Shown: in pieces, positions 2,552 through 47,416 of the stretch
Numbering within the stretch: position 1 is the first letter of the stretch
How the letters are laid out: each line of letters begins with the position of its first letter
Assembly: GCF_008831285.2 (NCBI RefSeq)
Contig: NC_045138.2
Location: forward strand, 26,879,934-26,943,933
DNA from: Nymphaea colorata
Lineage: Eukaryota; Streptophyta; Magnoliopsida; Nymphaeales; Nymphaeaceae
DNA: 64,000 nucleotides
Direction of reading: 5' to 3'
The notes under the pieces: model-generated
What the model saw: only the letters and a program-made list of their open reading frames with translations
What the model was told of the DNA's origin: nothing
The model's database searches: none
Translations under genes and position numbers: made by a program

Positions 2552-4845
2552 TCACCCGTGGATCAGCAGATTTCTGGTTAGTCCACAGCCCAGTGCAGAC
2601 AAAGGTATCTTCCCCACAAGCTCCTCCCCCTCCGCAAAGATCACCCCCATGCCCATGTGCAGGTGCGGCTCTATGTGACAATGGAAGGGCCACACCCCCG
2701 GGTTGTCTGCAACAAAGCGGAGGGCAGTCCACCCATAAGGGAACAAGGTCACTGTGTTCCTCAACGGCGGATTCCTGAGGTTGAACCCCTTAACATCCCT
2801 TTTCTCGTCAAACTTTCCATCTCCATACCCCAGAACCCAGAAGTCATGCCCATGCAAGTGCCATGGATGAAGCTCACTGTTGTTGCTAGTCAACGTGTTG
2901 GCGTTTTGGAGTATAACATCCACCGTGGCGTTCAATTCAAATCTGAAAATACCGGTGCTGGTCGTCGTGTTCGGGTTCTGCGGCGGCAGCATGATGTCGT
3001 AGTCGGCCGGAAAATTCTCCGGCGGCACAACACTGTCAAAAGCATTGCTGAGCCCGAACTTGATCGAGCCCAGGTAAGGTGTGACTGGCAAGGAAAGGGA
3101 GACGTTGTTGATGGACCACTTGGTGTAGCCATTCATCTTGTTCTGGGTGTTGAGGAGGATGATGCGCCTTTGGGCGACAGGCGGCGGCCTCGGGTTGAGG
3201 GATGACTTGCCAAGGATCTTTCTAGCGAAGGAGATGCTGTAGCTGGTGTCATTCCAAGCTGGGGAGGGCGGTGGGGGTATGGCGGGCAGTTTGGTATGTG
3301 GGTTCGGGTAGTAGTTCAGTATGGCTAGCCCAGGTGGTGTACTGGGTTTCCTCCCTCTAACGTTTATGGAGACCCAGTAGTTGGTTGATGGGCTCTGGTC
3401 AGTTCTGATGAGCACAGAGTAGCTCTCCCCAGAGTATATGTCTATCTTGTCAACAGTGGTAGGCTCTAGGTAATTGCCATCTGCCTCAACCAGCACCATT
3501 TTGTGTCCCTGTGGTTGAGAATGACATCAGTACTTAAAAAGTAAATCAGTGCCAAAAACAAATCAGTATTAAAAATAAATCATTACAAAAAATGGGTGCA
3601 GAAAGAAATTGTCAACTATATAATGTAGAGTAGATTATTGAAATGATCAAATAAGATGCTTATGTGACCGTTTTGACCGACTTGTGACTTAGTGAAGCCT
3701 TGCAGACTTGGATGAGTTGATTCTGGCTCCTCAGTCTAAGCAGTTTGCTACGTCTTTTGTTGATTGTTTTAAAGAAAATACAAATTTTCAGATCTGTAAT
3801 CACCTAACTTGGACTAATATGGGTGGCAGGCCAACTAACAGAGATGGCGTCATAAATCTTTGATGCATAATATAAAACTGAACATTTCAACACATAAAAG
3901 AAGAAAATTCAGCTTATATATCTCATATTTGAGCTGTATATCGTTACAAAGAAAAGCTTATCCCCATATGTCGGGCGAAAAAACCTGGCTCTTTTGGATG
4001 GACTCTTCTTGGTAATGTGAATGTGGACAATGAGGACATGCTTTTGTGATTGAGGGGATAAGTGCTCCTCAAAATAGTTGGGTTCAAATTTTATCTGGAT
4101 AATTTTTTTCTTGCTTTAACGCGTGCCTGTGGAATCCACTAACGCCAGTGACTCGGGCGGCATGTCTAGACGCATCATTGCAGTAAAATCATAGTCACAG
4201 TATATTATTTTCAATGATCGCGTCTCTTATACTCTTCTATAACGCCAAACCAGCTTTAGAGTCAGAGAGTGCTCCTCCTTGGAGTTAAGCCGAAATTGGC
4301 TTCTAGTCATGGCCGATATCATGGCACAAGGCCTGCATTTTCACTTACTGAGTTGTTTCTTTCAAGATAAAATCGAACCAATACCTTGGATATCCGTATA
4401 TTGCCTAAAGAAAGGAATAGCTTAATCTCTTACCTGCTAAGTAAATTCTAATCACAGAAAGATGGAACATAGTGGATGAGTGGGTAGCTAGTAATGTGTT
4501 GCCATAATAACTGCATTGCTGACTTCCATGCATATATTTCTATAGTGGGTAACGCTCGAAAAGCGCGTATCCCACACAGATCTATCTCACACACATCAAC
4601 ATCTAGCACACAAGGTCAAAAAGATTGTCTAGGTAGAGTCGCATTCAGCCACCAGCAGTCGTTCTCTTTACTTTGTTTAACTGGTGACTGGGATCGCATC
4701 TCTCTCAATAAAGGAAGAGTTTAACTTTTACCTGATTTGTTAAAAGATACAGGAAAGGGACAATTCCGGCTTCCGGCCTTTACACTATTCAGGCAGTTGT
4801 TGGGTGCCTATTCCCGGCAGGTTCTTTTATTCTAGGTAGAGTGGG

Positions 4846-4891
<46 letters not shown>

Positions 4892-6050
4892 CTGTCTAGA
4901 ATGATTCCACGTGAAAGTTCACAAAAGGTGGTGCTTTTCTAAGCCCACTTCTCCAATGTGCCTAAGAGAGTAGGTCATTGATTGCCGATCATTTCCACTT
5001 ATAGAGAAGGAAAGGAAAGAAGGATCTTTTCACTTTTTCTTCTCAAAAAAAATTCAAAAGAAAACTCCACCTACCGGCTACCACCGACTGCTTCCTTGTT
5101 GGTCTCCAGTTGGTACTGACGCTTTTGAGGTCCAAGGCCCTACCTACTCAGAACCGTATCTTATGTTCACTTTGCAAGCTTGTAGTTGCTCGTAAACTTA
5201 ATGATATCAGTAAAGTTGATTAATGGGGAGTAAGCAAATCCTTTTCAAGGATGAAAATCATGTCAAAGATGCCGGTGCACAACTTGGGAAGGCTCTTGTT
5301 TAGCTTGTGGCTCACCGTAACTTCAGACCTCATAAATTCTTTTAGCATTTTGGACCTAAAGAACCGTAACTTGATCTTCAAAATATACTTCTGAGGACAT
5401 AAAGACGATATGGAAAATTCCCTGTTTCGTAATGTTGAGATCTGCAGAATCCCACATCTAAAGAAGTGATAAACTGTGTGGAAAAACCTTACCCCAATTG
5501 CAAAATTAAGAGAAGCAAGCGAAGTGACGCTTGCAATCCTCAGTCTGTAAGTCTTGTTTGGTTGGACACGAAGGACGTGGGGTGTGCACTGGGTGTTGTT
5601 GAAAGCACACATGGTTTCAGGCCATGGATAAGTCCAAGTGGTCTGCGAATAACGCGCAAGCGAGCAATTGAACTGCCCTCTTCCCTGAATAAGCAAACTC
5701 TGCAAACACGAACAGAGCAGAGCAAAGAAAACGATGAGCGAGAACAAAAGGTAAAGTGACGATGGCATGATATCTTAGAGCAAAGACTTCAGTAATATTG
5801 GCTTGCCTGTGGCTCTCCAATCCATTTGAAGGGGATGGAGGAGAGTCCAAGCATCTGCTGATAGATGTTCTGGTGCCACCAGTCGCTCAAAAGAAGGCTT
5901 AGCTCCCCATCATAATCAAATGGCTCCTTTTGTCCATCCGCAACGTTCACTATTAGTGACCCATATAATCCCGCAGATCTTTGCATTCCATAGTGCGCAT
6001 GGTAGAAAAATGTTCCAGCCTACAACAACAGAACTGTCAAAGAGTGCACA

Positions 6051-15143: not shown

Positions 15144-17247
15144 TCACCTTGCATCAGTTGCCACAATTAGTTCATCAGGAGGGCAATCATCAAGCACATT
15201 ACTAGGCTCAAGGGGCATTTCATCATAAGTTGTTGAGAGATACTTCTGCCCAATAGCTCTAAGCAGTTGATAGACTTCAAACATAGAGGGCCTTTCCTTG
15301 GGAGCGGAGAGCACACATGCACATGCCACTCGTAAAAATTGCAGTAACTCATCATCAAAACCACGACCTGCCAGGGATCGATCTATGGCGTCTTGAACAA
15401 CAGAATTGCTTGAAAGTTGAGTAATCCAATCAACCAGATTTCCCTTGAAGCTTTCAGGGGCATTTGCCACATGAGTGGATTCTTCACCAGTTACTATTTC
15501 CAACAGAACCACCCCAAAACTATATACATCTCCCTTTGGTGTAGCAACAAGTGTCCGTGCATATTCAGGGGCCACGTAACCCAACACACCAAATTCACCA
15601 TTCACGTAGGTGCTAAGATGCGTGTCAACAGGATTCATAAGGCGTGCCAGGCCAAAATCAGAGATTTTTGGCTCATAGTCATCATCCAACAGGATACAAT
15701 GGGAACTAATATTCCGGTGGATGATACGTGGATTGCAACTATGATGAAGCCAAGCCAAACCTCTTGCAGCCCCAATGCTTATTCTCATTCTCGTTGGCCA
15801 CGCCATAACTTCAGATTCAGCTTTAAGTACATGTAACTGTTGATACAAGGTGCCCCTGGGCATGTGCTTGTACACCAACAGTCTCTCCCTTTTAGCAACA
15901 CAGAAGCCAAGGAGAGGAACCAAATTATGATGCCTTACTTTCCCAAGCGTTTCCATTTCAGACTTGAATTGCTTTTCAGTATGTTGAGAGTCCTGCAATC
16001 GCTTGACTGCAAGAAACGAACCATCTGAAAGTGTTGCTTTGTAAACTGTTCCTGTTCTTCCTGAGTTTATGATATTATGTTTGCTGAAGTTGTTTGTAAA
16101 CTTCATCAGATCTCTCAGCTTCAACTTCGGAATAGAATTCTCAAACACAGAAACCTGGTAATCCAACGCAGAAGGCATTGTTAACAAATCAAGAATTTCA
16201 AAGGAAATATATAAATCAAACAGGAAAGGTATCTGAAATGATGAACTACATGAATCCACACATGCAAACATGGTGGTATGTGGACAAACAGAACCAATTT
16301 GTCGACCAAAGATGAATAAAGTTGAAGAAAGAGAGAGCGAGCAGGGAGGGAGGGAAAAAATTTGAAGAGTGTGTAAGAGTAATTTTGCTTGCCTTTACTC
16401 CCTTCTGTGCAATCATGTCCTTGGCCCATTTGTTGCCTTCAATATCTTCATCCTTCTTCTTGGGCTTCTTACGGCAAAACAGCATCAGAACAATGATAAT
16501 GAGCAGGGCAATGAAGAGGATTCCACCACTAACGGTTGCAGCGGTAACAACAGCATGGTTGTTCTTTGCTTGAGACTGACAATTTGGTAACGGAGGCCCG
16601 CAAAGCCCTTCATTACTTGCAAAACTCTCAGGAGGTTGAGGATTCACGAATGGAGGAATATTCCCCGTTAATTTGTTACTTGCAACGCTGAAAGTCTTGA
16701 GCCGACTTAACTGCCCGATTCCAGGGGGAATTCCACCGGTAAACAGGTTACTATCCAATTTTAATGAGTTGAGATAAGTACAGTTCTTCAGATTATCAGG
16801 GATTTCACCAGTAAACTTGTTTTTCGACAGATCTAATGAAGTCACAAATCCCACATAATGTGAAATGTTAGTGGGCAAGGGCCCGGCAAGCTGGTTGTCT
16901 GAAAGATCCAACCCCGTCATGCTGGTGCAGTTCGCTAGACCAGTCGGGAACTGCCCCTGGAGGCCCATGGAGGACAGTCTTATGTTGAGCACTCTGTTCT
17001 CGTTTGGGTGCCAACACTCTACCCCAACGAAGTTGCAGATGTATCCTTCTGAATTGTTCTGAAATTTCCAGGACGCCAAAGAGTTGTTGGGGTCGTCTAA
17101 AGATTGTTGCAGGGATTTCAGGCACTCTATATCAGATTGAATGCAGTGGCAGTTATGTATGCTCGTCAACAAAATTACCACAATAAAGAGAGAACTCATT
17201 CTTCCATAGTTCATGCCCGCCGTCATGATCAACTCAACATAACCCAT
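15144..17247 (-). CDS. BIR1: LRR receptor-like kinase of the BIR1 type, two exons, HRN in place of HRD
   Basis: This is a plasma-membrane receptor-like (pseudo)kinase resembling Arabidopsis BIR1 (At5g48380), a BAK1-interacting negative regulator of immunity. Exons are 17247-16393 and 16154-15144, giving 621 aa. Order: signal peptide (to about residue 35, ending HNCHC), a short ectodomain with an N-terminal cap and about five LRRs ending in a Cys pair ([10 protein letters not shown]), a membrane span at about 236-257, a basic juxtamembrane segment, and a kinase domain from about 318. The glycine loop is GRTGTVYKA, the Lys is in LAVKRL (about 336), the catalytic loop reads IIHRNISSH with Asn replacing the catalytic Asp (about 433), and DFG is intact (451-453). 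HRN is also known in the BIR family, where these kinases are annotated as probably inactive. The start is the first in-frame ATG; its MGxxxLIM context recurs in a duplicated fragment at 24.7 kb. Confidence 0.93.
16155..16392 (-). other. GC-AG intron with an overlapping GT donor 6 nt upstream (receptor kinase gene)
   Basis: The exon end reads GGAGTAAAG followed by GCAAGC. Using GC after AAG gives Gln-Lys-Gly-Val-Lys joined to Val-Ser-Val-Phe, as in BIR1 relatives. Using GT inside GGA|GTAAAG would also stay in frame but delete Val-Lys. The acceptor is TACCAG at 16,155. The GC donor is the better fit by homology; both could be used. Confidence 0.75.
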
Positions 17248-17299
17248 GTTTTCTTCTTTTTTCCGCCTATCCACCACCTCAGCGTGTACTAATTCCAAA

Positions 17300-17740
17300 A
17301 CTTCTCAGCAAAGACCAGCTTACTCAGACCAGAAAACAACTAACGGACTATCCAAATCAAATTCCGCCGAAATTCAGCCTCTATAAGCAACCGAAAACAC
17401 TAATACACAAAAAAAAGCAAACCGAATACCCAAGAATTCTAAGATTGAGATCCGCCACCACAATCAATTAAGAGAAACCAATTTCTTCTTATGCAGAATC
17501 CGAACTCTCCACATGAAGAACCCCAAATTCAAGCCTCCCCACGTCAAAAACAAAGGAGAAAATCTACGACGAGACCGAAGGAGCTCTGAAGACGTAATAA
17601 ATCTACCTCAAAGCAAACAGGAAAAATCCTCCCTTTTGTATGCGCAAGAGCCTTCAGAACACAAGGATCAGAAGGATAAATATGAACCACCGGATTTGTA
17701 GGAGAAGTACGAGGAGGAAGCAAGAAGAAGATGGTACCTT
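17300..17740 (-). other. probable 5' UTR intron of the receptor kinase gene
   Basis: A CT-rich leader-like stretch ends GGAGACAAG followed by GTACCATC on the minus strand at about 17,738, a good donor. AG acceptor candidates lie at about 17,282-17,310 just upstream of the first in-frame ATG. A longer upstream open frame (17,668-18,096) starts in this leader but has no recognisable domain. Inferred only; RNA reads would settle it. Confidence 0.35.
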
Positions 17741-17879
17741 GTCTCCTCCATGGAGGAGGGAGAGAAGAAGAGACCAAGAGAGCAGAACAGAACTTCGCAG
17801 AGGCAGAATACCCTAATCATTGTGGCTTTTGCCTCCTCTTGTTTGTTGTCACAGCAGATGACCCAAAAAATAATTAAAT

Positions 17880-20800
17880 AAAACAGAAAATCTGCCGGCC
17901 CCATCACGTCGACTTGACCAGAGGAGCTGCTCACTTTACTAGGAGTCGTCCTCTCTCTAGATCTGTCTTGACCAGGCGCCAAAGAACTCACACACTCTCT
18001 CCAATTACGCGAAGGGACGGGTCCTAACGCGTCAATCCCAAGCACCTCAGACTTCCGTCCGAGAGTATTCACTCTTCGTTGAAGATGCTTTTTCATTGAA
18101 GACGCGGTAGCAACCAGCTACTCCTTCAACCCACCAATCTGCTCTCTATTATCTTCTTTGACAAATAGAATTCTCATACTTCAGTGCCCATCTATGCGCA
18201 TTTCTCGGACCATCCCTCCAACAAGGAGCTTTTTAGTTTGAAATTAACAAAGTTCATGTCTAACTTCTTGGAACTCAATTCAAAACTCAGTTGCATAAAC
18301 TCAATTCTAACGTCCTGTTGTTTAATAAGCAAAACTGAGTTAAGGCAAATCAATTCAGATCATGGGAAGCAAGGAATGAGAAGAAAAAGATTAGTGGAAC
18401 TCGCTTTCTTGTGAAAAGGGTGGTGGTAATGCTGGCCTTCAAATGTTCCTTTGTCTCCTGCTCACCAAATCGGTCCTCCTTTTCCTCTCAAAAGTAATCG
18501 TCTCATAATTCTGCAGGACAAGGACAGGGGAAGCTGCCCGGTCAATCACGGCAAACATGGCCCGATCCCACCACCACGACAAGTGGCCATCCGAGTTCAT
18601 GCTTACCCCGTTCCACAGTCCCGCCGTGCCGCTCAAGTCGGCCCTTCTTCGTCCCTCCCAACTCCAAGACTTCCATTCGTGTTCAGATTTGAGTCAGACT
18701 TTAGTTTAGTACCACCTTTTATGCGTTACTCCACTTTTCTTTACAGCCCATGATAATTAAAAAGAAAAATATGTTCTTTTTCTTTTAGTTTGAGAATAAC
18801 AGAGGTAAAACCGGATGGAAAATATTACAAAAATAAAATGGGTTTTTTGTGACATATTGATTTGCTAACAATAATAAGATACTTCGAAGATATGGTGTTT
18901 TTTTTTATGTATATTATATTGGGCATTGACGATTCTACACTCAAGGGAGAACTTGGTATTTTAAGGGAGATATAGTCAAGATGACTTGTTGAGTAAACGA
19001 TCGTGTGGGTCCGCTCTTGCAGGCCTCGAGCATTGAACACTAGAGCTCCTCCTTAAAATATTTAAACATAACTTATATTACAAGATAACGCGAAAGTTTG
19101 TAGGTCTACATAATACTTACGTAAATATATGTTTATATAGGTTCATTGCTAAAGGAGTTAAAATACTTTTTTATGTCACAAATATGAAGAACCTAAATGC
19201 GGGATTGTTTATCATGTTGACTTGGTGTTAAGAACTTGTCTTTTACTGGAAAAAATAATGGCATGGACACTTCTCAAGGTTTGAATCGCGCCAGGAAACA
19301 GAAAAACATGCCAAACCATGTTTCTTGGGAGCATTTAGGATCATTTAAGACGAAAATCGATTAGAAATAACAGGTCCATAGTTAAATTAGTGAAAGTTGA
19401 TACACTATTTGGTTTGAAATACTATGGGATCTACCGTAACCATGAAAAATGTTTGAGAATTTAGTCAATAAACCTCTTGTTTTTAAGTCGGATCATGAGA
19501 AAACTGCACCCAAGTAGAGAGACAATGTCAATTGCTCAACACTGTAAAACCTGAAGGTTAGTAGGCTCACCTCTAAGCAGGAGGAGAGGAGCTAGAAATT
19601 TTTTTATTTGAGAAGGTCGAATTATAATTTTAATATAAATCAAAATATAATTTTTTAATTTTTTTTATAAGCTAAATAAAAAAATACATATAAATACGCT
19701 TGCCCCTAGCACAATGTATTAATGTGGTAGGGACCTGCTGTGCATCTCACCAAGATAAGGAAAAATTAAATGCTTTTTATGGCACATGAAGATGGCGCCG
19801 ACTTGGTTGACAGATTGGATCATATCTGTAAATTTTCCACAAGAAAGACGTGAAAGCCTTTATTATCCGGGATTTCACTCCTTCCAAAATAGACTACATT
19901 TGCCGCAACGTTGGAAATGTTGCAGATACCATTAGAATTTGTATGTTTTGCTACATTTAAGTAAGTTTCATTGGTAATTAAGTTCATAATAGCACAGATT
20001 ACACATCTAGCGAGAGATTATAGCAAGCTAAGTGTTCATAGTTTGCTGCCCATTTGACTTGGGTTTAGATAAAAAGTTCAGATTAAACAATTATGTGATG
20101 TATGCAGACGAATATGTGTCTAGAAATACGATAAAATTTTTAGCATTTTCGCTTTGTTTTTAAAACAATACATACATTTTTTTTTTCTAAAGGCTAAATG
20201 AATTCTTAACTACATTTGCAGGAATCCTGCTATAAAGGAAGTTGATCGCCCATTAATTATCCTAGAGTAATATAAAGAGCTTGATTTCTCATCAAAACGA
20301 GGTGTGGCACTTTCTCCCAAACAATGGATTCTCGGTCCAGTTTTAATCTGGATCTGGATCTAGTACTAGATTGTCGGAGTGTCGCCAGGATTACGGACCC
20401 ACTCTAAATAGGGTGTCAGTCCAAAGAATTGGCAGGGCTCGGTCAAAAGATGGGACTCGTTCAACACTGGACAAGATGGTCTTGTACTACATTTTTTATT
20501 TATTTTAAATATATAATAATAATAATAATAATAATTTTTTTTTGCAAATGGATTCAGCTGAATCCATCCATTTTCTGTTGGACTCGATTCAGTTTTTAAT
20601 TTCTAGAAAGCTAGATGAAACTTGAATAGACACTCTTCATTATGAATTAAAAAAAATAGAAGGGCAAGAGGATGAGGTGTCAAGATCATGGAATATCAAG
20701 GCATCAATGTCGTCGAGTGGTTCAAATTTCAAAGGTTTTGATTTCCCTTTTGTAAACTCTTTCAATGGTCAATCAATTTATTGCTATTATCTTTTGGGCG

Positions 20801-21150
20801 GTTGGTGCAAAGACTAAGAGAAGAAAACTGTAAATTTCTAAGTCATCTTTATGCTTCACTGAAATCAATTTAATAATTTAACCAACAATATGCATTTCAT
20901 CTTCATAGCGCACACACAAGAAAGCTAAAATTGGTAATATAATACTAATTTGAAGTGCTTAATACTGTACAAGTATGAGGACCTTTGATTTCCACGGACG
21001 TTATGCTCCTCCCCAGATCTATAATGACATAAAGCAAACGCATACCGACTCCACATCGGGCCCCCACTCAACCCAAGTGCCTCTACTTCCACTCAACCAA
21101 CCATATAGATGATGAACATGGCATCTTGACAGTCAAGTCAAGACCTTCAA
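17880..21150. other. intergenic; promoter side of the receptor kinase gene and old repeats
   Basis: At about 18,550-18,700 a stretch containing GCCGTGCCGCTCAAGTCGG resembles 23,440-23,480 upstream of the truncated paralogue, so it is probably homologous promoter DNA left by the duplication. At 19,575-19,710 lies a GGAGAGGAGCTAGAAA...GCCCCTAGCA element related to 9,035-9,205. An (AAT)n run is at about 20,507-20,535. No gene was seen. Confidence 0.45.
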
Positions 21151-21164
21151 CTTGTTTTTACATT

Positions 21165-21323
21165 TGGATGACAAGAGGGTACCCTTCAATCCAACTGTAA
21201 AAGATTTCTTTGTATCTCATAGACTCAAGCGACCAATCTATAGCATGTTCAGATCCACAGCAGTCCGCTTTCAGTTCTTTTTTGAGAGCCTGAATTTCTT
21301 GAGACATGGTATCGCACCATTGT
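21165..21323 (-). pseudogene. Ty1/copia reverse-transcriptase fragment, degenerate
   Basis: A minus-strand frame of about 52 codons starts with Gln-Trp-Cys-Asp-Thr-Met-Ser-Gln-Glu-Ile-Gln-Ala-Leu, which fits the start of copia reverse transcriptase (consensus W..AM..EI.AL). Further on, SLESMRYKE and IEGYP look like eroded SIERYKA and IEGIDY. Neither the catalytic YVDD region nor LTRs were found nearby, so this is an isolated relic. Confidence 0.5.
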
Positions 21324-21814
21324 TGAATTTTGACAACAGTTTATAGTTCTATCGATGTTGGTTATGTCGGATTTGGATGGTGTGAAGGAATGTCTAAAAT
21401 TGGATTGTCTTCAAACGGAGGCGGTTGAAAGTAAATCCGACTCTAGACTTGGCAATGGCATAAATATAGCAGATTCGTTCATTTTCAATATGGTCGTGAA
21501 AGGGAGCACTGCCAATTAGGATTTAGGAATGCTTCACTTTTTCCAAGTCTACACAGGCATGGATTAGTCTGCGTTTACAAAGATACAGACCGTGTTTCCG
21601 AAGTCTCTCGTACTTCTTGAAACAAGTTTACAAACAGAAAGACTGTGTTAACCAACGACGATTATTATGAGTTCTGGCCCTCTTTCATCACCGTTTCCTG
21701 TTTCAGTTTTAGAGCACGATGTTCTCTTTCTTTATTTGAGAGCCATCAGCGATAGTCTCTCTTGATTTTCTGATTCTGCACATACGTGATCGTCGGTGTG
21801 ACAGTTCTTCTTCG

Positions 21815-22349
21815 GTTGGAGCAGATCTCATGTACTTCAAGTTCGTGATCATGGCATGTAGCTCAGGAAAACAAATGGTGGTGCTTGGAACTCGATTTCT
21901 TCGTCTTTGTATTAGGTAATAAGTAAAAGGTCTCTGATCGTCATAATTTCAGACAAAGAAAGGTCAGATGCCAAGCACTTCATATCTGTAACTCAATCCC
22001 ACCACAGGGCAAAGGGCAAACGTTCAGCCTTTCTTCTTCCTACTTCGAACCTTCTCAGAACCATGCATCATATCGAATTTTTACTTGTAATTGGATTCAG
22101 AGTTAATTTGAGTTGAATTCAAAGGCAAAGCTGCTTACAAGGACCTTAGTTTCAGCTCTTGTCAAATACAAAATGCATATCTGAACCACAGGAGTTGGGT
22201 AAACATCCGTTCGTCATTAAACAAATCTTTAACGCTGATATCTCCAATACATATCTCACTTTTTCTTTTTTTTTCACTTGATCTTCCAAACGACTATGTT
22301 GAGAGGAAATCACTTAGGTTACACAATCCTTTCAGTTGGAGCAGATCTC
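21815..22349. repeat. cassette copy A, bounded by 15-bp direct repeats
   Basis: Non-coding copy of a segment also found at about 23,160-24,140 (copy B) and 24,778-25,735 (copy C). Shared landmarks include TGGTGGTGCTTGGAACTC, TCATATCGAATTTT, GGATTCAGA, AAGGACCTTA and CTATGTTGAGAG. GTTGGAGCAGATCTC occurs at both ends (21,815-21,829 and 22,335-22,349). Copy A lacks about 200 bp present in B. It lies immediately 3' of the truncated receptor gene. Confidence 0.8.
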
Positions 22350-22365
22350 TATTCAAAATTTGTAC

Positions 22366-23139
22366 TTACTTCTTATAGATCAACCAAACAAATGAGCAAA
22401 CCAGCATCAAAACAATGACAAAGAGCAGAAAAATGAAGAGGAATACACCAAGAGCTCTAGAATCTATAACACGGGTTTGCTTCTTCGAGTTACATTTTGC
22501 TAAGGGAGACCCGCAGAGCCCTTCATTATTTGCAAAATTCTCAGGAGGTTGAGGGTTCGCGAATGGAGGAATATTCCCCGTTAATTTGTTACCTGCAACG
22601 CTGAAAGTCTTGAGCCGCCTTAGCTGCCCAATTCCACTGGGAATTTCGCCGGTTAACTGGTTGCCATCCAACTTGAGAACGTTGAGATAAACACAATTCT
22701 TAAGATCATCGGAGAGTTCACCAGTAAACTTGTTCTTGGACAGGTCTAATGCAGTCAATACTCCCACATAATGTGAAATATCAGTGGGCAAGGGCCCCGA
22801 AAGCTGGTTGTCTGAAAGATCCAACCCTGTCATGCTGGTACACTTCGCTAGACCAATGGGGAACGGCCCTTGGAGGCCCATGGAGGACAGTCTTATGTTG
22901 AGGATTCTGTTCTCGTTTGGGTGCCAACACTCTACACCAACGAAGTTGCAGATGTATCCTTCTGAATTGTTCTGAAATTTCCAGGACGCCAAAGAGTTGT
23001 TGGGGTCGTCTAAAGATTGTTGCAGGGATTTCAGGCAGTCTATATCAGATTGAGTGCAATGGCAGTTATGTATGCTCATCAACAAAATTACCACAATAAA
23101 TAGAGAACACATTCGTCTATGTTTGGCTTCCACCATCAT
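22366..23139 (-). CDS. kinase-less BIR1-like LRR membrane protein (truncated tandem copy)
   Basis: The 257-aa product is close to the ectodomain and membrane span of the receptor kinase at 15.1-17.2 kb, with long identical blocks ([36 protein letters not shown]). It has a signal peptide, cap, about five LRRs, GLCGSPLAKC, and a membrane span at about 229-253, then stops after WLIYKK with almost no cytoplasmic tail. The kinase exon is missing; downstream lies cassette copy A. The open frame extends further 5' through a (TTC)n microsatellite read as poly-Arg, but without an ATG, so the start is set at the first ATG (23,139; another follows at 23,136). Last codons read AAGAA then GTAAGTA, a good donor in phase 2. 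It may be a receptor-like protein that could sequester BIR1 partners, or a pseudogene. Confidence 0.75.
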   Translation of the reverse strand: MMVEAKHRRMCSLFIVVILLMSIHNCHCTQSDIDCLKSLQQSLDDPNNSLASWKFQNNSEGYICNFVGVECWHPNENRILNIRLSSMGLQGPFPIGLAKCTSMTGLDLSDNQLSGPLPTDISHYVGVLTALDLSKNKFTGELSDDLKNCVYLNVLKLDGNQLTGEIPSGIGQLRRLKTFSVAGNKLTGNIPPFANPQPPENFANNEGLCGSPLAKCNSKKQTRVIDSRALGVFLFIFLLFVIVLMLVCSFVWLIYKK

Positions 23140-23159
23140 CACGAATGCAACAAGACCCT

Positions 23160-24140
23160 TTTCTTCTTCTTCTTTTCTTCTTCTTCTTCTTCTTCTTCTC
23201 CTTCCTTCTCCTACATGCACACTTATCCCAACTAGCGTTCGTTCATCACAGTCACGAAGCGGAAAGAATGGTTTTGGTAGGAAAATGTTGGTGCTTGGAA
23301 CTCAATTCTTTCATCTTTTTATTCTCCAAAAGTGCAAGTCATATTTATGATAGACAGTTGACATGTCAAGGACGCCTGTCCCTAACTCATCCCCACCATG
23401 TGGAAAACGGCAAACTTTCAGTCATTCTGCTTCTTCCTCCGAACTCCGAGCCGTGCCGTTCAAGTTGGTCTGTCTTGGTCCTCTTGGACTTGGTCACCAA
23501 AAATTTCAAAATTTTCATTGATGTGCTTTCACTTCCTGCCAAAGCTTAGGAATGCGAACAGTTTAGATTCATATTGGACCCAAGCGGCTACCAAATCCAA
23601 CTTGAACCTGAGGTGGACCAGCAAGCGGATGTTTCCGGGCTCCATTGATAATCCTCATATCGAATTTTCACGTGTATACTGGATTCAGATTTCGTTTGAT
23701 CTTGAATTAAGACGCAAAGCGGCTTATAAGGACCTTAATTTTAACTTTTTCAGGTATAAAAATCATATCTGTGGCTGAGTAATTGGTTTTTTTTGTTTGG
23801 CTGGTAATTTAACCAATGACATCTCTAATACCATTCTCAACTTTTTTCTGTCCATTTGTTTTTCTAACGGACTATGTTAGAGAGGGATGTTTTCTTTTTC
23901 TCAAGAAACTTGTGATATACTTGTTAGATCAAATTCGATGATATGGCAAATGTTCTTTTTATCAGGTATGTCACCATAAAAAGTATACTTCCACAATAAC
24001 CAAAAGTTTGAGGTTTGAGGTTATGACGCTTTGAAAATATTAGATTAGACATTGATATTTTGCAGTGAAATAACATTGGATTTTTTGGGCACATTTTCTC
24101 TTCTATTGATGTGAAGAGATGAAGAGATGATTTTATAAAG
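23160..24140. repeat. cassette copy B (upstream of the truncated receptor copy)
   Basis: It begins at the (TTC)n tract and runs through TCACGAAGC, AGGAAAATG(G/T)TGGTGCTTGG, CTCCATTGATAATCCTCATATCGAA, CTATGTTAGAGAGG, TTTTTATCAGGTATGTCA and GACGCTTTGAAAA. Copy C has the same order with about 20-25% differences by eye. It contains the presumed promoter of the truncated copy. Confidence 0.8.
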
Positions 24141-24487
24141 ACTTTAATGATGCCCATGAATTTCAAGAAATAATGGGAATTTCTAATCCTTGTTAGAGAT
24201 CTCTCAACGGGGTCGGCGCAATGGATGGAGTAAAGGCTGTAGTCACTAGTCTTCGTTTCGATCTTCAAGACATCAACTCTTTGTACTACTAAAAAGTGGT
24301 CAACTACTGTGAAGTTGAAGGGTGGCGGATGTAACACCAAAATCAGACTTTGTATCTTAGAGGGACCAAGGGTTGAGTGAGAATTTTAGCTCTTATATGT
24401 GTAATACAATGAAATAATGTTTGAATAAACGCGAGGGGGCAAGGAGACGGGACCTCAATTCTCCTCCAAGAAGGAAATGTTTCAAAC

Positions 24488-24660
24488 AGCAAGAACAAGG
24501 AACTAACCATTTTGTGAGCTCCTTGGACAGGCTTCGGTTACGCCCGGACGAAGTAGCCTCACGAGTGAACGACAATAAAATGTCCACAAAAACCAGCTTT
24601 GATGAATAGGAAAACAGAAGCGAAGCCAAATATACAGAAAATGTTTGGTCGATCTGTATG
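24488..24660 (-). pseudogene. OST5 gene fragment (intron 2 end, exon 3 part, exon 4 part)
   Basis: Minus-strand similarity to OST5 at 26.6-26.9 kb: the end of intron 2, then exon 3 coding for REATSSGRNRSLSKELT, then GTTCCTTGTTCTTGCT from exon 4. The acceptor AG is changed to AC at about 24,565. About 130 bp covering the rest of exon 3, intron 3 and the start of exon 4 are missing. Because intron sequence is kept, it arose by DNA duplication and not by retrocopying. Confidence 0.8.
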
Positions 24661-24665
24661 TCATA

Positions 24666-24781
24666 ATCAATCCAAGAAGAACCACTTCTATGCTTGGCTT
24701 CCATCATCATTATCAATCCAAGATGACCCACTTTTATACTTGGCTTCCATCATCATAATCAGTTCAAGAAGACCCACTTCT
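24666..24781. repeat. 46-bp tandem repeat, 2.5 copies, derived from a receptor 5' coding end
   Basis: Copies begin at 24,666, 24,712 and 24,758, exactly 46 bp apart, with ATCAATCCAAGA and TTGGCTTCCATCATCAT in each. Read on the minus strand, one copy encodes MGHLGLIMMMEAKHR, matching the N-termini of the receptor kinase (MGYVELIM) and the truncated copy (MVEAKHRR). A (TTC)n tract follows, as in copy B. This is a third, nearly erased receptor copy. Confidence 0.85.
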
Positions 24782-25735
24782 TCTTCTTCTTCTTCTTCTA
24801 GACACCCATTTATCCCAACGCGTTTTTGTTGGTCAGCGTCACGAAGCTGGAAATTTTGTTTTAGTAGGAAAATGGTGGTGCTTGGAAGTCAATTTCTTCA
24901 ATTTTTATTCATCAAAAGCTCTCTGCTGACTTTGTTCCAGGGCGGGCCAAGTAGTTTAACCTCGGATTTGAGTAGGGTCAAACTGAACCCAAATAAAAAA
25001 AATACATTGCACAACTAACAATTTTTTATTTTTCTAATGTAATTTTTTTTTTTAGGTTAGTTAGGTTGGGGCCATGGCCTAGGCAGCCCCTCCCCTCCCT
25101 CCGCTCTGTCCGAGTCATGATTTTGCTTAAATTTCTGTCAAAATTCTAAAATTTTCTCTGATGTGATTTCGCTTCCTACCAAACACTGGGGATTTGAACG
25201 GTTTGGACTCGTATTAGATCCAAGCTTTATGAAATAAAACTTAAACTAAACGAAACCTGCAAGTGGATATTTCCGGACTCCATCGACAGATAAGTCTCAG
25301 ATCCAATTTTCACATGTAACTGGGCTCAAATTTCATGAACTTGAATTCAGATGCAAAGGTGCTTAGAAGGACTTTAATTTTAACTCTGTCTGGAGTAAAA
25401 TCTAAATCCAAATCTGAATCTGAGTAATTGGGTTTAAATTTGGCTGGCTTTTTTTTTTTTTTTTGGGATCTTCTAAAGGGCTATGTTGAGAGAGACACAC
25501 ACATTTTCCTTTTTCTCGAGAAAATTTGTGATAAAATTCGATGATATCGCGGGTGTTCTTTTATCAGGTATGTCATCGTAAAACTGATATTTCCGCAAAA
25601 AATCGGAAGTTTTGATTATGGCGCTTTGAAAAATATTACGCTAGGCGTTGAGGACTTTGCAATAAAATAACAAGACAGCAATTTTTTAGGCACAGTTTCA
25701 TCCTTGATTTATATGAAGAGATTTTTTCCTAAAGG
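24778..25735. repeat. cassette copy C
   Basis: Collinear with copy B: TATCCCAACGCG, GTCACGAAGCTGG, TAGGAAAATGGTGGTGCTTGG, TTTCCGGACTCCATCGACAG, GGGCTATGTTGAGAGAG, CTTTTATCAGGTATGTCATCG and ATGGCGCTTTGAAAA occur in the same order. An insertion of about 150 bp near 24,930-25,110 includes a poly-T run and a GC-rich string not in copy B. Confidence 0.8.
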
Positions 25736-26607
25736 CTGTTAATTAACACCCATTAATTTCAAAACACAATTTCTGCATCCTTAAAACAAAGGATTCAAAA
25801 CCTTGGTAGAAACCACCGATCCAAGATCTTGAAATCTAAAATCTTAAATCACCGCATCCAAACACAAACTGTTTGATAGTTCCAGCATGTTGTCTGTGGT
25901 AATGTTTTATGCATTAGGTGTGGCAAGAAAATAGTATGACCAAAGCGAGATTATTTTGCGTCTGATGGCCATAGACAAGATGTCCTTAACAATTAGTCAT
26001 GTGTTTCGTGAAAGAGTGCCTTCAAATCCATGGAAACAATAGTTAAAAACTTAAAATACTTCCAATGAGAAGCTCGTACTTTGCGATTCACAGTTTCCGT
26101 TAAAGAGTACCCTCATAACATGGAAACATTTGACAAACCAAAAGAGAAAAGATGCATTCGTATTTACAGTTTGTACAGCGACTGAACTTTCTCGTACTCC
26201 TAACTCTCCCATTCGTATCGCCAAAAAGCAAGGACCAAACAGGAAGGAGCAATGAGACAGGGCCTCTCTCCCTCTCTATCTCTAGATTTCCTTTTGCCTA
26301 TCATCCATGATCAAAACAGCCGCCCCTATCAAGGTTACAAAGCTTTTAGAGATTATGCCTGTTTAGGTCCACTAAGGCTCAAATGTTGAACAAAAGTCGC
26401 GGCTATGTTCAGACCAAATAGAGAATACAGCCTCACATCTTTGACAATAATAAACGTTGTTCAGGTCCGATGAACGAGTTCAGAATTTCAGAGAGAGGAA
26501 AAGAGAAATCCAAAATTTGTCTAGCGCTATCTATTGCAATAACTTTATGTAGTATTCAAACTCATCATCCTACATGTCCAACAAACTTCATTTCATGCAA
26601 AAAAGGT
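25736..26607. other. intergenic; 3' flank of OST5
   Basis: No coding signal was recognised. The part next to 26,608 should contain the OST5 3' UTR on the minus strand. Otherwise AT-rich unique sequence. Confidence 0.45.
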
Positions 26608-29600
26608 TCAAACATACACTCCTGAAGCCAAGAGCAAGAACAAGGAACCAAAACCCTGCAAGTAAAAACGAAGGAAGACATGAGTTCAAAGACATAAATA
26701 CCACATACAGCAGCAAACCCATGAAAGCTTCCAATAACCTACCAAGAATAGAGAAGCCACAGCACCAGTTGTGAGCTCCTTGGACAGACTTCGATTACGC
26801 CTGGATGAAGTAGCCTCATAACTGAACGACAAAAAAATAATGTCCATAAGAACCAGATTGATTTATAGGAAAACAGAAATGAAGGCAAAAATAAGGAAAA
26901 TATTTTATTGTTCCGTGTATCTATTTCCGAGAAAACTTAATGCAACCAAATGCTTCAACTCATTCAGCATGTTGAATAGAAAACGATGACGACACCCATT
27001 TGCAATAATTTTAGAAGCTAATTTTCAAACAGAAAGCAGTAAAGCACACAGCAACTCATACTTTGAAGGCTTTTAAGAGACACGTACTAGAAATTTCACC
27101 AACAATCCTTAGAGCAGGCATACATGTCAAAGCACAGGACAAAGACAGGATTGATCACCCCAGTTGATACTCAGAAACCTATGGATAGCTTTAAAAATTT
27201 AAAAACTTTAAAAAATAGCATTAAAAAAAACAAAATAAGTAGGTCTTGGGTGCCTAACAGGGTTCTCGCCCAAGCATGCACTTCAAGGTGCCAGACCTGC
27301 ACCTGGGCAGCCCTTTGGAGGTGCCTAGGCACAGATTCAACCTATATAGCAGATATCACAGCCTCAGGTCAGAGATCAATTAAATATCCTATAATCCGTT
27401 TCGAAAGGAATGCTAATTCATCTAGGCAGCCCTCCGGAGTATGGATTGCACACCCCTCAACTAGGAAAATATCCTATGAGAAAAATACATGTTTCAAAAG
27501 GACTAATAGTTCATTGACAAGAAGAAATCGGGCATGTGACAGGAAGTCAAGGAAAAAGAAGCACAAGGCAGCATTAGCAACCATCCTAATCTCAGATTCT
27601 TAAGTTATAACTAAAGCAGTGCTCGCCAGCTGTCACCGAAATCCACTTGCAAGCCTACTAAGACTGCTTCCTTAACAGTTAAGTTCGATGCAGCATGCTT
27701 CTATCTCAGCCAGCACAAGGCCCTATCTTTTATGGTTGCACGTTTCAGAGAAGCATTTGATGCTTTTAAACCAACCAACACAACCAAGCTAAGAGGTATC
27801 ACCATGGCCTGGATGATCTTCCAGACCATAACCATAGGTTTGGTCCAAGGGCTCAAAAGTAGTTTTGCTTATATAAGTAGCACTGCACCAGGCTCGCTTG
27901 TTAGTCAAGTCATGGCAAACAAGAAGGACTCCATTTTTGTCATAAAAACCAAGGAAATTAATCACCTATCAAAAACACATCACAGAAATATGGCCAGACA
28001 CCGGCAAATAAGGTTCCAACCAAAACTAGCTTTTCAATCACTCTTCCAGAACAGAATTTATGTATAGGCAGTCAAACTATATGGGGAGCTCAAATCTTCT
28101 TGTGCATGAAATGTTTCCAGCCAAAATTATAGAAAAAGATTCCCATGAAAAATAAAGTAAAATAAAAACTTATAATGTGAAACCATATAACTAAACTAGC
28201 TCCAGTTGCACCTCAAACTGAAAAAAAATCAACATCATCAAGAGCATCATATAGATACTTCATCTTCAACTCCTGTTTTTTAAATCAACAAATAAAAATG
28301 TGTCTCTCTTTCTGTGTGTCTATGTGTAGAGAGAGAGAGAGAGAGAGAGAGAGTCAAATATACAGCAAACCCATGAACCAGATAAGCAGCATTTTGTCAC
28401 GAGGAAGAAAGAAAATATGAAAAAAATTATTCACACAAAAAGCAAAAAAAAAAACGGATATGTGAAGTTCTGAAAATAAAATATAATAGGGTATAAAATA
28501 AAAAAAAAATCCCCCTAACTGGGGCAACTAGATAGTATAACGAGTAGATTAATTCAATAAACGCAAAAGCACATCAAGGTATCAATCAAATATTATCAAA
28601 TTTTTAACATGTTCTTCCATCTTTTTGCTTGCTTGATTGCACAAGCATGAACCATGAGAACTACCAAAATGTATCGCTATAGTATAAAACAATGGAGCTT
28701 TCGAATTAAAAAACAAGAAATTAGTAACACAAGAATGAGCCAGGTACCCTTTCAGGCTTTCAGCAGGATCTATCCCAGACATGCAGTCCCATTACAGGCT
28801 CAAGCCTTGACCACCTCTGAGAAAGAATCCTCATGTTGTATTACCATTAACAATTAAGGCCAGCCTACAAACTCCACACAAGTCTTATCTGCACATACCA
28901 GACGCCAGAAACTATTTCCAAATGTATATACGGACTTTGTACTTTGACTTGAACTATAATCTGCTATGCATACTCTGTTACACAATCTTACACTCAAGAT
29001 TCAATGAGCACTCAAATAGGCCATTTCCTCTAACCAAGCATGGTCAACAGCCAGAAAGATACTCCACGAGGAAGTGAGCATTGGACTCTTACTGTCAGAC
29101 CTTGTTTTTCCAGGAAACAAGGTCCGTCTTTCAGAAATGAAACTCCATCTTTAAAGCGTATGCAGATTAGAAACAACTTTACAGTGTGAGATGCCTATGC
29201 TGGACAACATAAGTTTCATCAGCTGATCTTCACTGACATTCCTCCTTCACGCTTAACAAAGAATAATGCAAGAGAAGATGATGCTTTCCAGCAAAGAAGG
29301 ACAAAATTTTTAAGAAAACACATAGTCCTCAAAGAATAAGCGTAACATAGCTAAGGTTCAGAATTTGTCTCACTTCTCCTATCTCTTATCCTGTTAGTAT
29401 GTTGGATACATAAACTGCGATCATCAACTGCCGGGGACAACAATTAATCATTCACAAAATAAAAGGTTCTCATAACACAAAAAGGATCAAAGTTTAAAAA
29501 AAACAAAGACGAACGTTCAAAGGAAATTTAACCATCAACTAAAGCTGGATCTAGAATCAAAAGTGCTTCAACATCTAACTTGACTTCCGTATCTGATCCA

Positions 29601-34253: not shown

Positions 34254-35060
34254 CAATTATCTAAATTACGAAGTTGGCATTTATTAAAATTTTAGCTGCC
34301 ATAGAATGTTTAGGCCTTGAGAAGTTTGACCTATGCAGCAATTTGGGTTATCCCGAGATGAAATTTTCGCTAGTATTACATCAAACGGCAGCCACCATTT
34401 ACGTCATAAGAACAAATTTTGTGAGATTGCTGGGCCTTCTTGTCTAATTGATAGGGGCGGAACATATGTGTGCTTCTGGAAACTCAAACTGACTGGCCGC
34501 AGAAAAAGCAGCTTGGAAAATAGATAGGTAGCAATAGCGTGGCCCAGCCAAAAGTAAAATAGATCTTGTTAAATTTGAGAATAAGGAAAGATGGTGCTAT
34601 CGTTACATTTTTCAGGGAAAGGAAGGTCCCATTCTTCAGGGCGTTACTGGGGCACCTTTTTTCTTCTTTGATTATCTAAATTACAAGGTTTGGCATTTAT
34701 TAAAATTTTAGCTGCCATAGAGTGTTTTGGGCTTGAGAAGCATCCGACCTATGCAACAATTTGGGCCATCCCGAGATCAAATTTTCAGTAGTATTATGGC
34801 GAACGGTAGCCATTATTTTCATCATAAGAACAACTTTTGTGAGCCCATCTTGTCTAATTGGTAGGGCGGAACATGTGTGCGCTTCTGGAAATTCAAACTG
34901 ACTGATTCGCAGTTAAAGAAGCTTGGAACATAGATAGGTAACATGGCCCAAAGAGAAAAGTTAAATAAAAATTGAGCTAAGGAAAAGAAGGTGCTATTGT
35001 TACTTTTGATAATAAGGACGAGAAGGGGCCTATTCTTCAAGGCCTTCCTGACACTTTTTT
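34254..35060 (+). repeat. 415-bp tandem duplication
   Basis: Copy 1 starts with ATTATCTAAATTACGAAG (34,257) and copy 2 with ATTATCTAAATTACAAGG (34,672), 415 bp later. Both continue through GGCATTTATTAAAATTTTAG, CCCGAGAT, CATAAGAACAA, TTGTCTAATTG, GGCGGAACAT and a CATTCTTCA/TATTCTTCA region. A 64-codon frame in copy 1 is not kept in copy 2, so a coding role is unlikely. Confidence 0.85.
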
Positions 35061-35929
35061 TTCCTCATTGATGTCCGGAGGACATTTTTTCTATTTATCG
35101 TTGTTACATTTTTGTTGATATCAAGCATGTTTCAAGATGTGTGTTGGACTGTAGGACGTTGATAAGCACCTTCGTGACAAATAAATAAACAGTTTATTTG
35201 AGCAGCCGTGTATATTTATGCAGAAAACTTAACAATTGAAGTTCAAAGTTTTTTGGAAAGTATATTCAAATTTGTCCTTAACAACCACACGTTTATGTGT
35301 TCAAATTAAAGTCAAGATCATGTCCATATGCATGCCTTATGTGTTTAGATTTGTCTTGGATATAAACTGTCTATGAATACCCAATTTCTGCACACATATA
35401 AACTGCTTCATGTGTTCAAGCGCATACATTGAGATCCTGATTTTGGCTTATTATTGTTCAATTACATATGGGTCCGATGTTAAGTGGTATTTTCTATTAT
35501 TTCCGTGTAAGTAGTATTTTCAGTATTTGTCATGGACTGATGTTAATAATGCTTTTCAATGTTAGCAAGCAGACGATAGGTGGTGGGGGACAGTTTTTGT
35601 GGTACTTCTTTGTTGTTCTCGAGATTTGAGGATATTGTCTCGGTTTGGGTAAAATAGGTCAAAAAAAATGGAAGAAAAGAAGATCAGAGACAGTGAGAAG
35701 GTCAAATGGACAAATACCAATCATGGTACACAATAACCTCTATCTGGTTGAAGCCTATAAGGTATTGCAGCAACATCCTTGAGTTTGGAAACAGAGCATT
35801 GGCACCACAAGAGAGACACTTTTGTTGAAACGAAACATTGATTTTATTAATCACAACTTTAGTCTAATTTTAAATTTTCAGTGATTTTGTACTGTAAATA
35901 GTAGTACTGTATCTAATATACCTTGACAG
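35061..35929. other. intergenic, AT-rich
   Basis: No gene or clear repeat was seen. The last bases form a polypyrimidine-poor but AG-ending acceptor (CTTGACAG) for the beta-galactosidase-like exon that follows. Confidence 0.4.
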
Positions 35930-46759: not shown

Positions 46760-47416
46760 ATGCTGGAGGAGTCGATCCCCGCCATCTGGGCGTCCATGCA
46801 CAGTTGGTTCACGCCAACCGTTCTGTTCGTGCTCCTCAACCTTGTTATCGGCACCATCATCGCCACCTCCAGCGGCGCCGGGCAGAAATCCAGCGGGACC
46901 GGGCAGAAATCAGGCGACAAGCCTCTGGCGAGACCCCCCTCCATGATGGAGCGCGTCCGGTCCATCAATCTCCATAAGCAAACCGTGGAAGATGTCCCGG
47001 CAGTTACGGTGACGAAGCCCGCCGAGCCGGAGGAGATATCGGCTGTAGAGGAGATCTTCCGAGACGGCGGGCAATCTGGGGATGGCGTTGCTGCGCTTAG
47101 TACTGGTGGCGGTGATGGTGCTGGGGCCGACGATGGCGGTGCTGCCGAAGAGACTCCGGTGAGACGTCGGAGGATGAAAAAGTGGGCGAGCGAGAAGTTG
47201 CCGGCCACCACCGGCTTGGTTAAGGAGGAGCAGCCCAATCGGCGGGGGGAGTCCGTGAGAGGCCACCGTAGGGTGGAAGAGTTCGACGATGATTCCGGCG
47301 GGGAGGAGGTGGACGCGAAGGCTGACGACTTCATCAACCGGTTCAAGCAGCAGCTGCAGTTGCAGAGGATGGAGTCGATCATGAGGCATAAGGAGATGCT
47401 CAACAGGGGCAGATAA
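46760..47416 (+). CDS. A70: DUF4408/DUF761 protein, PAMP-induced A70-like
   Basis: A single-exon gene for 218 aa. The N-terminus, MLEESIPAIWASMHSWFTPT followed by a hydrophobic helix (about residues 19-38), is the DUF4408 signature of the plant A70 (PAMP-induced) family. The middle is acidic and Gly-rich and probably disordered, with a basic RRRRMKKW patch. The C-terminus VDAKADDFINRFKQQLQLQR plus MESIMRHKEML is the DUF761 helix. These are membrane-anchored proteins of unknown biochemistry, often induced by stress or pathogens in Arabidopsis. The first ATG matches the start of relatives. Codon use is GC-rich compared with the surrounding DNA, which also creates long shadow frames on the opposite strand. 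Confidence 0.88.
   Translation: MLEESIPAIWASMHSWFTPTVLFVLLNLVIGTIIATSSGAGQKSSGTGQKSGDKPLARPPSMMERVRSINLHKQTVEDVPAVTVTKPAEPEEISAVEEIFRDGGQSGDGVAALSTGGGDGAGADDGGAAEETPVRRRRMKKWASEKLPATTGLVKEEQPNRRGESVRGHRRVEEFDDDSGGEEVDAKADDFINRFKQQLQLQRMESIMRHKEMLNRGR

Follow-up and report, generated by a model that had tools for sequence, protein, structure and literature searches.

The DNA analysed here, referred to as the window, is a 64,000-nucleotide stretch of the Nymphaea colorata genome (contig NC_045138.2) that contains a local array of genes and gene pieces related to the receptor kinase BIR1, a brake on plant immunity. On the minus strand at 17247-15144 there is a complete two-exon leucine-rich repeat (LRR) receptor kinase gene, open throughout, that we call c1. 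Approximately 5 kb upstream and on the same strand is an open frame (22366-23139) that we call c2. It is predicted to encode a protein 257 amino acids long with a signal peptide, an N-cap, LRRs, and a membrane span followed by almost no cytoplasmic tail. An initial annotation had described three states of this locus on one strand, full, kinase-less, and nearly erased, and we found all three as c1, c2, and a short coding trace in a module farther upstream (module C).

The full receptor kinase gene and its kinase-less copy

Exon 1 of c1 (16393-17247, minus strand) is an open frame predicted to encode a signal peptide, an LRR N-cap, LRRs, a membrane span, and a juxtamembrane part (Pfam LRRNT_2, E 3.8e-8; LRR_1, E 5.3e-12). 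The kinase exon, including the stop codon, lies at 15144-16154 (minus strand; Pfam protein kinase, PK_Tyr_Ser-Thr, E 7.1e-37). The intron between them (16155-16392, minus strand), placed from the sequence, appears to have GC-AG rather than GT-AG ends (GCAAGC...TTACCAG, with the boundary at AAAG/GCAAGC), and across the junction the frame reads on as GVK/V, matching AtBIR1 from Arabidopsis. Over 593 residues, the c1 protein and Arabidopsis BIR1 share 57.5% identity; the AtBIR1 letters used for both comparisons fit five of five published positions. Identity to the other close BIR-like protein of the genome, encoded on contig C3, is 49.8%. In genome searches, which covered 408 Mb in 783 contigs, the C3 gene ranked second to the c1 kinase exon at 57% and the rest were at 48% or less among the 120 of 1965 candidates scored. 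The c1 ectodomain has the N-cap C-W and the CWHPNENR motif of the BIR family (LRR X), and its Pfam kinase domain and whole-protein identity to AtBIR1 agree with a BIR-type kinase. Judged from its sequence, the c1 locus is of BIR1 type.

Alignment of the two copies, which the initial annotation had proposed as a check, showed 84.7% nucleotide identity over 789 columns (17262-16474 with 23175-22396) and 76.5% protein identity across 251 residues. The blocks of identical residues expected from that annotation exist, with the longest being 44 residues (c1 amino acids 42-85) rather than 15-20. The E-values exclude chance as the source of this likeness. An assembly artefact is an unlikely explanation of c2 because 106 of the 744 aligned sites distinguish the copies, whose flanks are also unlike. 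The homology stops in the membrane-span and juxtamembrane codons, where c2 reads CSFVWLIYKK-stop and c1 reads CRKKPKKK. The c2 protein ends with ...LMLVCSFVWLIYKK just past the membrane span, and only SFVWLIYKK remains after the hydropathy peak. The hydrophobic span itself is kept, with a mean hydropathy of 3.36 over 19 residues compared with 3.03 in c1. A tblastn search of the 64-kb window with the c1 kinase exon for a second such exon matched only c1's own. Because the c2 frame ends at 22366 and the only kinase match in the window is the c1 exon, c2 is, on this evidence, BIR-derived and not a BIR receptor kinase.

Equivalents of the BAK1 contact residues in c2

Excerpts of PMC5717402 describe how BIR1 binds the co-receptor BAK1. 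The two ectodomains alone bind each other in vitro, and the N-cap loop of Arabidopsis BIR1 packs on BAK1. The contact residues named there are W71, H72, T128, and F150, with T103 between the interfaces. In vitro, binding is lost with either W71A or H72N; in plants W71A behaves like bir1-1 and H72N plants look normal. According to a review, BIRs occupy the surface of BAK1 and other SERKs that ligand-bound receptors require, and BIR kinase domains are pseudokinases (PMC10317173, excerpt).

Four of these five residues are kept in c2, where W72, H73, T104, and T129 correspond to W71, H72, T103, and T128 of AtBIR1; the equivalent of F150 is a tyrosine in both c1 and c2. The Trp-His pair (W79/H80 in c1, W72/H73 in c2) falls inside the 44-residue block that is identical between the copies. 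A structure look-up by sequence with the N-cap half of c2, which is nearly identical in c1, returned BIR2 (E 1.3e-29) and BIR3 (E 5.5e-22) as the top matches. With the whole of c2, BIR2 and BIR3 led the single-stretch matches and long repeat-rich receptors scored higher overall; with the C-terminal half, BIRs were not singled out. Together with the 57.5% identity of c1 to AtBIR1, the N-cap matches bear out the assignment of the locus to BIR1 in the initial annotation.

A local array of upstream modules

The DNA around c2 contains three related minus-strand modules that we call A, B, and C. Module B (23116-24174) is the upstream DNA of c2 with its first codons. Module C (24687-25770), homologous to B, has a start-codon trace at its 3' end. 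Module A (about 21864-22316) begins directly behind c2, is homologous to the upstream DNA in B (nhmmer E 1.1e-16 and 7.4e-16) and C (E 2.3e-14), and has no coding copy after it. Modules B and C are 67.7% identical over 699 columns and 71.8% over 234 columns, and B and A are 79.7% identical over 118 columns and 68.5% over 178 columns. Two 18-bp direct repeats, AGATCTGCTCCAACnGAA, differing by one base, flank module A on the minus strand, one beyond it (21811-21828) and one before it just past the c2 stop (22331-22348); they are perhaps an insertion scar.

The coding trace of module C (24661-24800, minus strand) spans approximately 15 codons in c1 numbering and is internally repeated (24781-24753 with 24689-24661, 89.7%). 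It aligns with module B at 24918-24687 and 23332-23116 (71.8%), and the likeness stops inside the first codons. The initial annotation had placed a third trace at 24.7 kb limited to these codons. They are indeed the only coding part, but the homology between B and C runs on to 25770. Farther upstream, fragment D (26764-26999, minus strand) is similar to 24733-24507 behind the trace (nhmmer E 1.3e-25) and is the best genome match, besides itself, of the segment behind the trace (E 2.3e-30). Part of the DNA behind the trace had four weak genome matches elsewhere (E 5.5e-8 to 4.3e-6), and the segment common to 26999-26764 and 24733-24507 was absent elsewhere in the genome search. The array thus appears to extend to fragment D. 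Taken with the states of c1 and the modules, this indicates that pieces of the locus are present in four or five local copies that range from complete to orphan upstream DNA.

We considered whether modules A-C derive from repeats and rejected this, as a genome search with module B (24190-23190; very common words skipped) returned only A, B, and C; what is dispersed is an insert of approximately 170 bp in module C (24928-25104, minus strand), which has 83-90% matches at dozens of genome sites. Some of these sites have partial matches on the opposite strand, and the insert looks like a small non-autonomous element. A profile of A, B, and C found nothing significant in the DNA upstream of c1, where the best match (E 0.071) was at the start codons. 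A separate search gave one weak co-oriented match between 18655-18466, upstream of c1, and 23482-23303 (E 0.006), so that a remote relation between the c1 upstream DNA and the modules is possible. The simple picture of one locus duplicated and then eroded does not fit, since the three modules are a family of local copies with no clear match upstream of c1. The description of the duplication as fairly recent was also loose, given a synonymous divergence (dS) of 0.27 between c1 and c2 and Kimura two-parameter (K2P) distances of 0.21-0.39 between modules.

Signs of constraint or decay in c2

The ratio of nonsynonymous to synonymous divergence (dN/dS) between c1 and c2 is 0.48 over 248 codons and 0.34 in the LRR part (184 codons; bootstrap 95% interval 0.19-0.59). 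In the tail plus span it is 0.69 with a dS of 0.49, and this drift would be in keeping with the kinase side having been lost some time back. There is a single gap, in frame, in the 780 sites of the exon alignment, and c2 contains no frameshift or stop. By comparison, noncoding modules B and C, at a K2P of 0.32-0.34, show 20 gap events across 821 ungapped sites, and in 19 of these events the length is not a multiple of three; K2P is 0.21-0.39 for A-B and A-C. When this B-C gap rate was scaled to the c2 half of a dS of 0.22-0.27, a neutral c2 branch was expected to carry 5.9-7.2 frameshifts, and none was observed (P 0.003-0.0007). The ectodomains differ at 28 of 187 residues, where 40-48 changes would be expected on a neutral c2 branch alone (branch length d 0.11-0.135). 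In 2000 simulated neutral branches, 28 or fewer changes occurred in a fraction of 0.0185 at d 0.11 and 0.001 at d 0.135. Using C3 as the outgroup for the 28 differences, c2 matched C3 at 6, c1 matched at 3, and neither matched at 19. We conclude that c2 was probably under constraint during much of its history and may have stayed so after the truncation. The label "decayed" from the initial annotation does not fit c2 because of these signs of constraint, though the branch-model test described next is without power.

Several observations weigh against c2 being a maintained gene. The first start codon of c1 is lost in c2, so that its frame begins seven codons later, and only two of the five N-glycosylation sequons in c1 are intact in c2 (the others are broken at c2 residues 99, 120, and 150; N106K, N127D, and T157V in c1 numbering), a loss not above chance (random 0.126). 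The noncoding B-C yardstick may mutate unlike the exon. On a shorter c2 branch, 28 or fewer ectodomain changes are no longer unusual (0.373 of runs at d 0.08, 0.984 at d 0.05). The simulated neutral branch stays free of stops in 0.0895 (d 0.11) and 0.0415 (d 0.135) of 2000 runs, and in 0.1475 (d 0.08) and 0.30 (d 0.05) on shorter branches. Three-taxon codon branch models with the C3 outgroup did not reject a neutral c2 (p 0.35 for the LRR part, 0.23 for the whole exon) and placed the higher dN/dS on c1; a neutral c1 was likewise not rejected (p 0.93, 0.95), and these models were without power. The outgroup branch had run to its upper limit. The upper bootstrap limit of 0.59 on dN/dS would fit constraint on c1 alone. 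The constraint on c2 may also partly predate the truncation.

We also considered gene conversion of the 5' half, with 2 silent differences in 69 codons compared with 21 in 116. This was suggestive and not significant, with 30 of 300 shuffles as extreme. A 101-nucleotide run identical between c1 and c2 occurred in 0 of 5000 shuffles, which ignore codon constraint.

Elsewhere in the window, there is a tandem direct repeat of approximately 415 bp, 77% identical, at 34256-35072. Neighbouring Pfam matches are multicopper oxidase pieces (2552-5768, minus strand), a flavin amine oxidase (59898-61538, plus strand), and a DUF4408/DUF761 protein (46760-47416, plus strand).

Discussion

The reading of c2 that we favour, at about even confidence, is that it has been kept as a gene whose product, a BIR1 ectodomain on a membrane anchor with no kinase, would bind BAK1 and other SERKs without signalling. 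Such a protein would be expressed and reach the plasma membrane, would bind the ectodomains of BAK1/SERK on the surface that ligand-loaded receptors use, and would add a kinase-independent sequestration of the co-receptor beside that by full BIR1. In a variant of this mechanism, c2 would compete with full BIR1 for BAK1 and loosen the brake. The likely origin would be a rearrangement in the local array by which module A came to lie immediately after the codons for the membrane span in a BIR1 copy. As a mechanism, a decoy for BAK1 is plausible because the BIR1 and BAK1 ectodomains bind alone (PMC5717402, excerpt) and c2 keeps the Trp-His pair. From the 44-residue block, the kept contacts, and the published work on BIR-BAK1 binding we infer that a c2 protein, were it produced, would occupy BAK1 on the extracellular side with no kinase of its own.

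The most serious rival, to which we give somewhat more than one-third of our belief, regards c2 as a pseudogene fragment so young that this truncated duplicate has yet to be disabled, with the constraint belonging to c1 or to c2 before it lost the kinase. Modules A and C next to it have lost coding parts, the tail and span of c2 have diverged, neutrality is compatible with the codon models, and gene conversion in the 5' half, possible though not significant, could keep c2 looking young. However, this leaves the absence of any frameshift, with about six to seven expected, and fewer amino acid changes than a neutral branch would carry at d 0.11-0.135; nor is c2 the faster copy at the sites polarised by C3. 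We think it improbable that c2 instead serves as an alternative exon for the ectodomain, joined by splicing to the kinase exon of c1 or to something downstream. It lies upstream of that exon on the same strand, and a consensus splice donor, GTAAGT, overlaps its stop (22364-22369, minus strand). The donor is in phase 2, however, so that splicing onto the c1 kinase exon would break the frame and add approximately ten new residues before a stop, and the tblastn search found no other kinase-like exon in the window. This role as an ectodomain exon for the c1 kinase was therefore rejected.

Least probable by a little, in our view, is that c2 acts like RLP44, uniting BAK1 with another receptor and promoting signalling rather than sequestering BAK1. 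A match on contig C4 (7063278-7064090, minus strand) was considered as a second kinase-less BIR and proved to be an RLP44-like kinase-less LRR gene rather than a BIR truncation. No significant kinase match was found within 9.5 kb around it. The c2 protein has the same overall layout and is 38.6% identical to the C4 protein over 233 residues. After itself, the best genome matches of the C4 protein are the ectodomains of the C3 BIR (E 1.6e-38), c1 (E 9.4e-34), and c2 (E 4.2e-33), followed by matches at E 4.5e-27 and weaker, which suggests that RLP44 may derive from a BIR ancestor. On contig C1 (15035152-15035331) a stretch of 60 residues, in an open frame of 113 amino acids, is 92% identical to part of the RLP44-like protein and is perhaps a fragment or partial copy. 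RLP44 is an interaction partner of both BAK1 and BRI1, and its brassinosteroid role requires the phosphosites on its conserved acidic tail, where T256, S268, and Y274 lie (PMC8572011, excerpt). The C4 protein ends in ...MPDY, which fits the conserved C-terminal tyrosine described in that excerpt. By contrast, c2 ends in SFVWLIYKK and lacks both the tail of the C4 protein and the acidic phosphosite tail of RLP44, and it keeps the BIR Trp-His that the C4 protein does not have.

Receptor-like proteins without a kinase are already a known kind, and c2 is a receptor that lost its kinase, with an RLP44-like architecture. With RLP44 it shares a short LRR ectodomain, a membrane span, and no kinase, and differs in having almost no tail in place of the acidic one (PMC8572011, excerpt). 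With BIR receptor kinases, probably its direct parent lineage, it shares the ectodomain family, the N-cap Trp-His contact, and the membrane span, and it is without their juxtamembrane segment and kinase. Thus, c2 appears RLP44-like in layout and BIR-derived, and a member of neither group because it has neither the acidic tail nor the kinase. SOBIR1-dependent LRR receptor-like proteins of the RLP23 and Cf type are also membrane LRR proteins without a kinase, and are characterised by an acidic stretch before the span and GxxxG within it (PMC8290556, excerpt). The ectodomain of c2 is short, and in KCNSKKQTRVIDSRALGVFLFIFLLF there is a basic stretch before the span, no acidic stretch, and no GxxxG. 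The overexpressed BAK1 ectodomain, which changes immunity in Arabidopsis (Dominguez-Ferreras 2015, cited in excerpts of PMC5717402 and PMC6331536), is likewise a kinase-less half of the BIR1-BAK1 pair; unlike c2 it is engineered and is the other partner. Among the open-licence PMC articles listed in literature searches, judged by title and start of abstract, none dealt with a naturally occurring BIR1 copy that lacks the kinase, which shows such an absence weakly.

Excerpts of PMC5717402 draw on point mutants and on binding in vitro to argue that BAK1 can be held back by the BIR1 ectodomain alone. A natural BIR1 ectodomain that is anchored, has no kinase, and is kept next to the complete gene would test this claim in the intact plant. 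It is also conceivable, though we consider it rather unlikely, that BIR receptors lost the kinase on two or more occasions, an ancient one that gave rise to RLP44 and an independent one here. If so, BIR ectodomains would be a recurrent source of kinase-less membrane proteins that bind BAK1, with a new one beside its intact parent. If it is maintained, c2 would show how receptor kinases give rise to kinase-less co-receptor binders.

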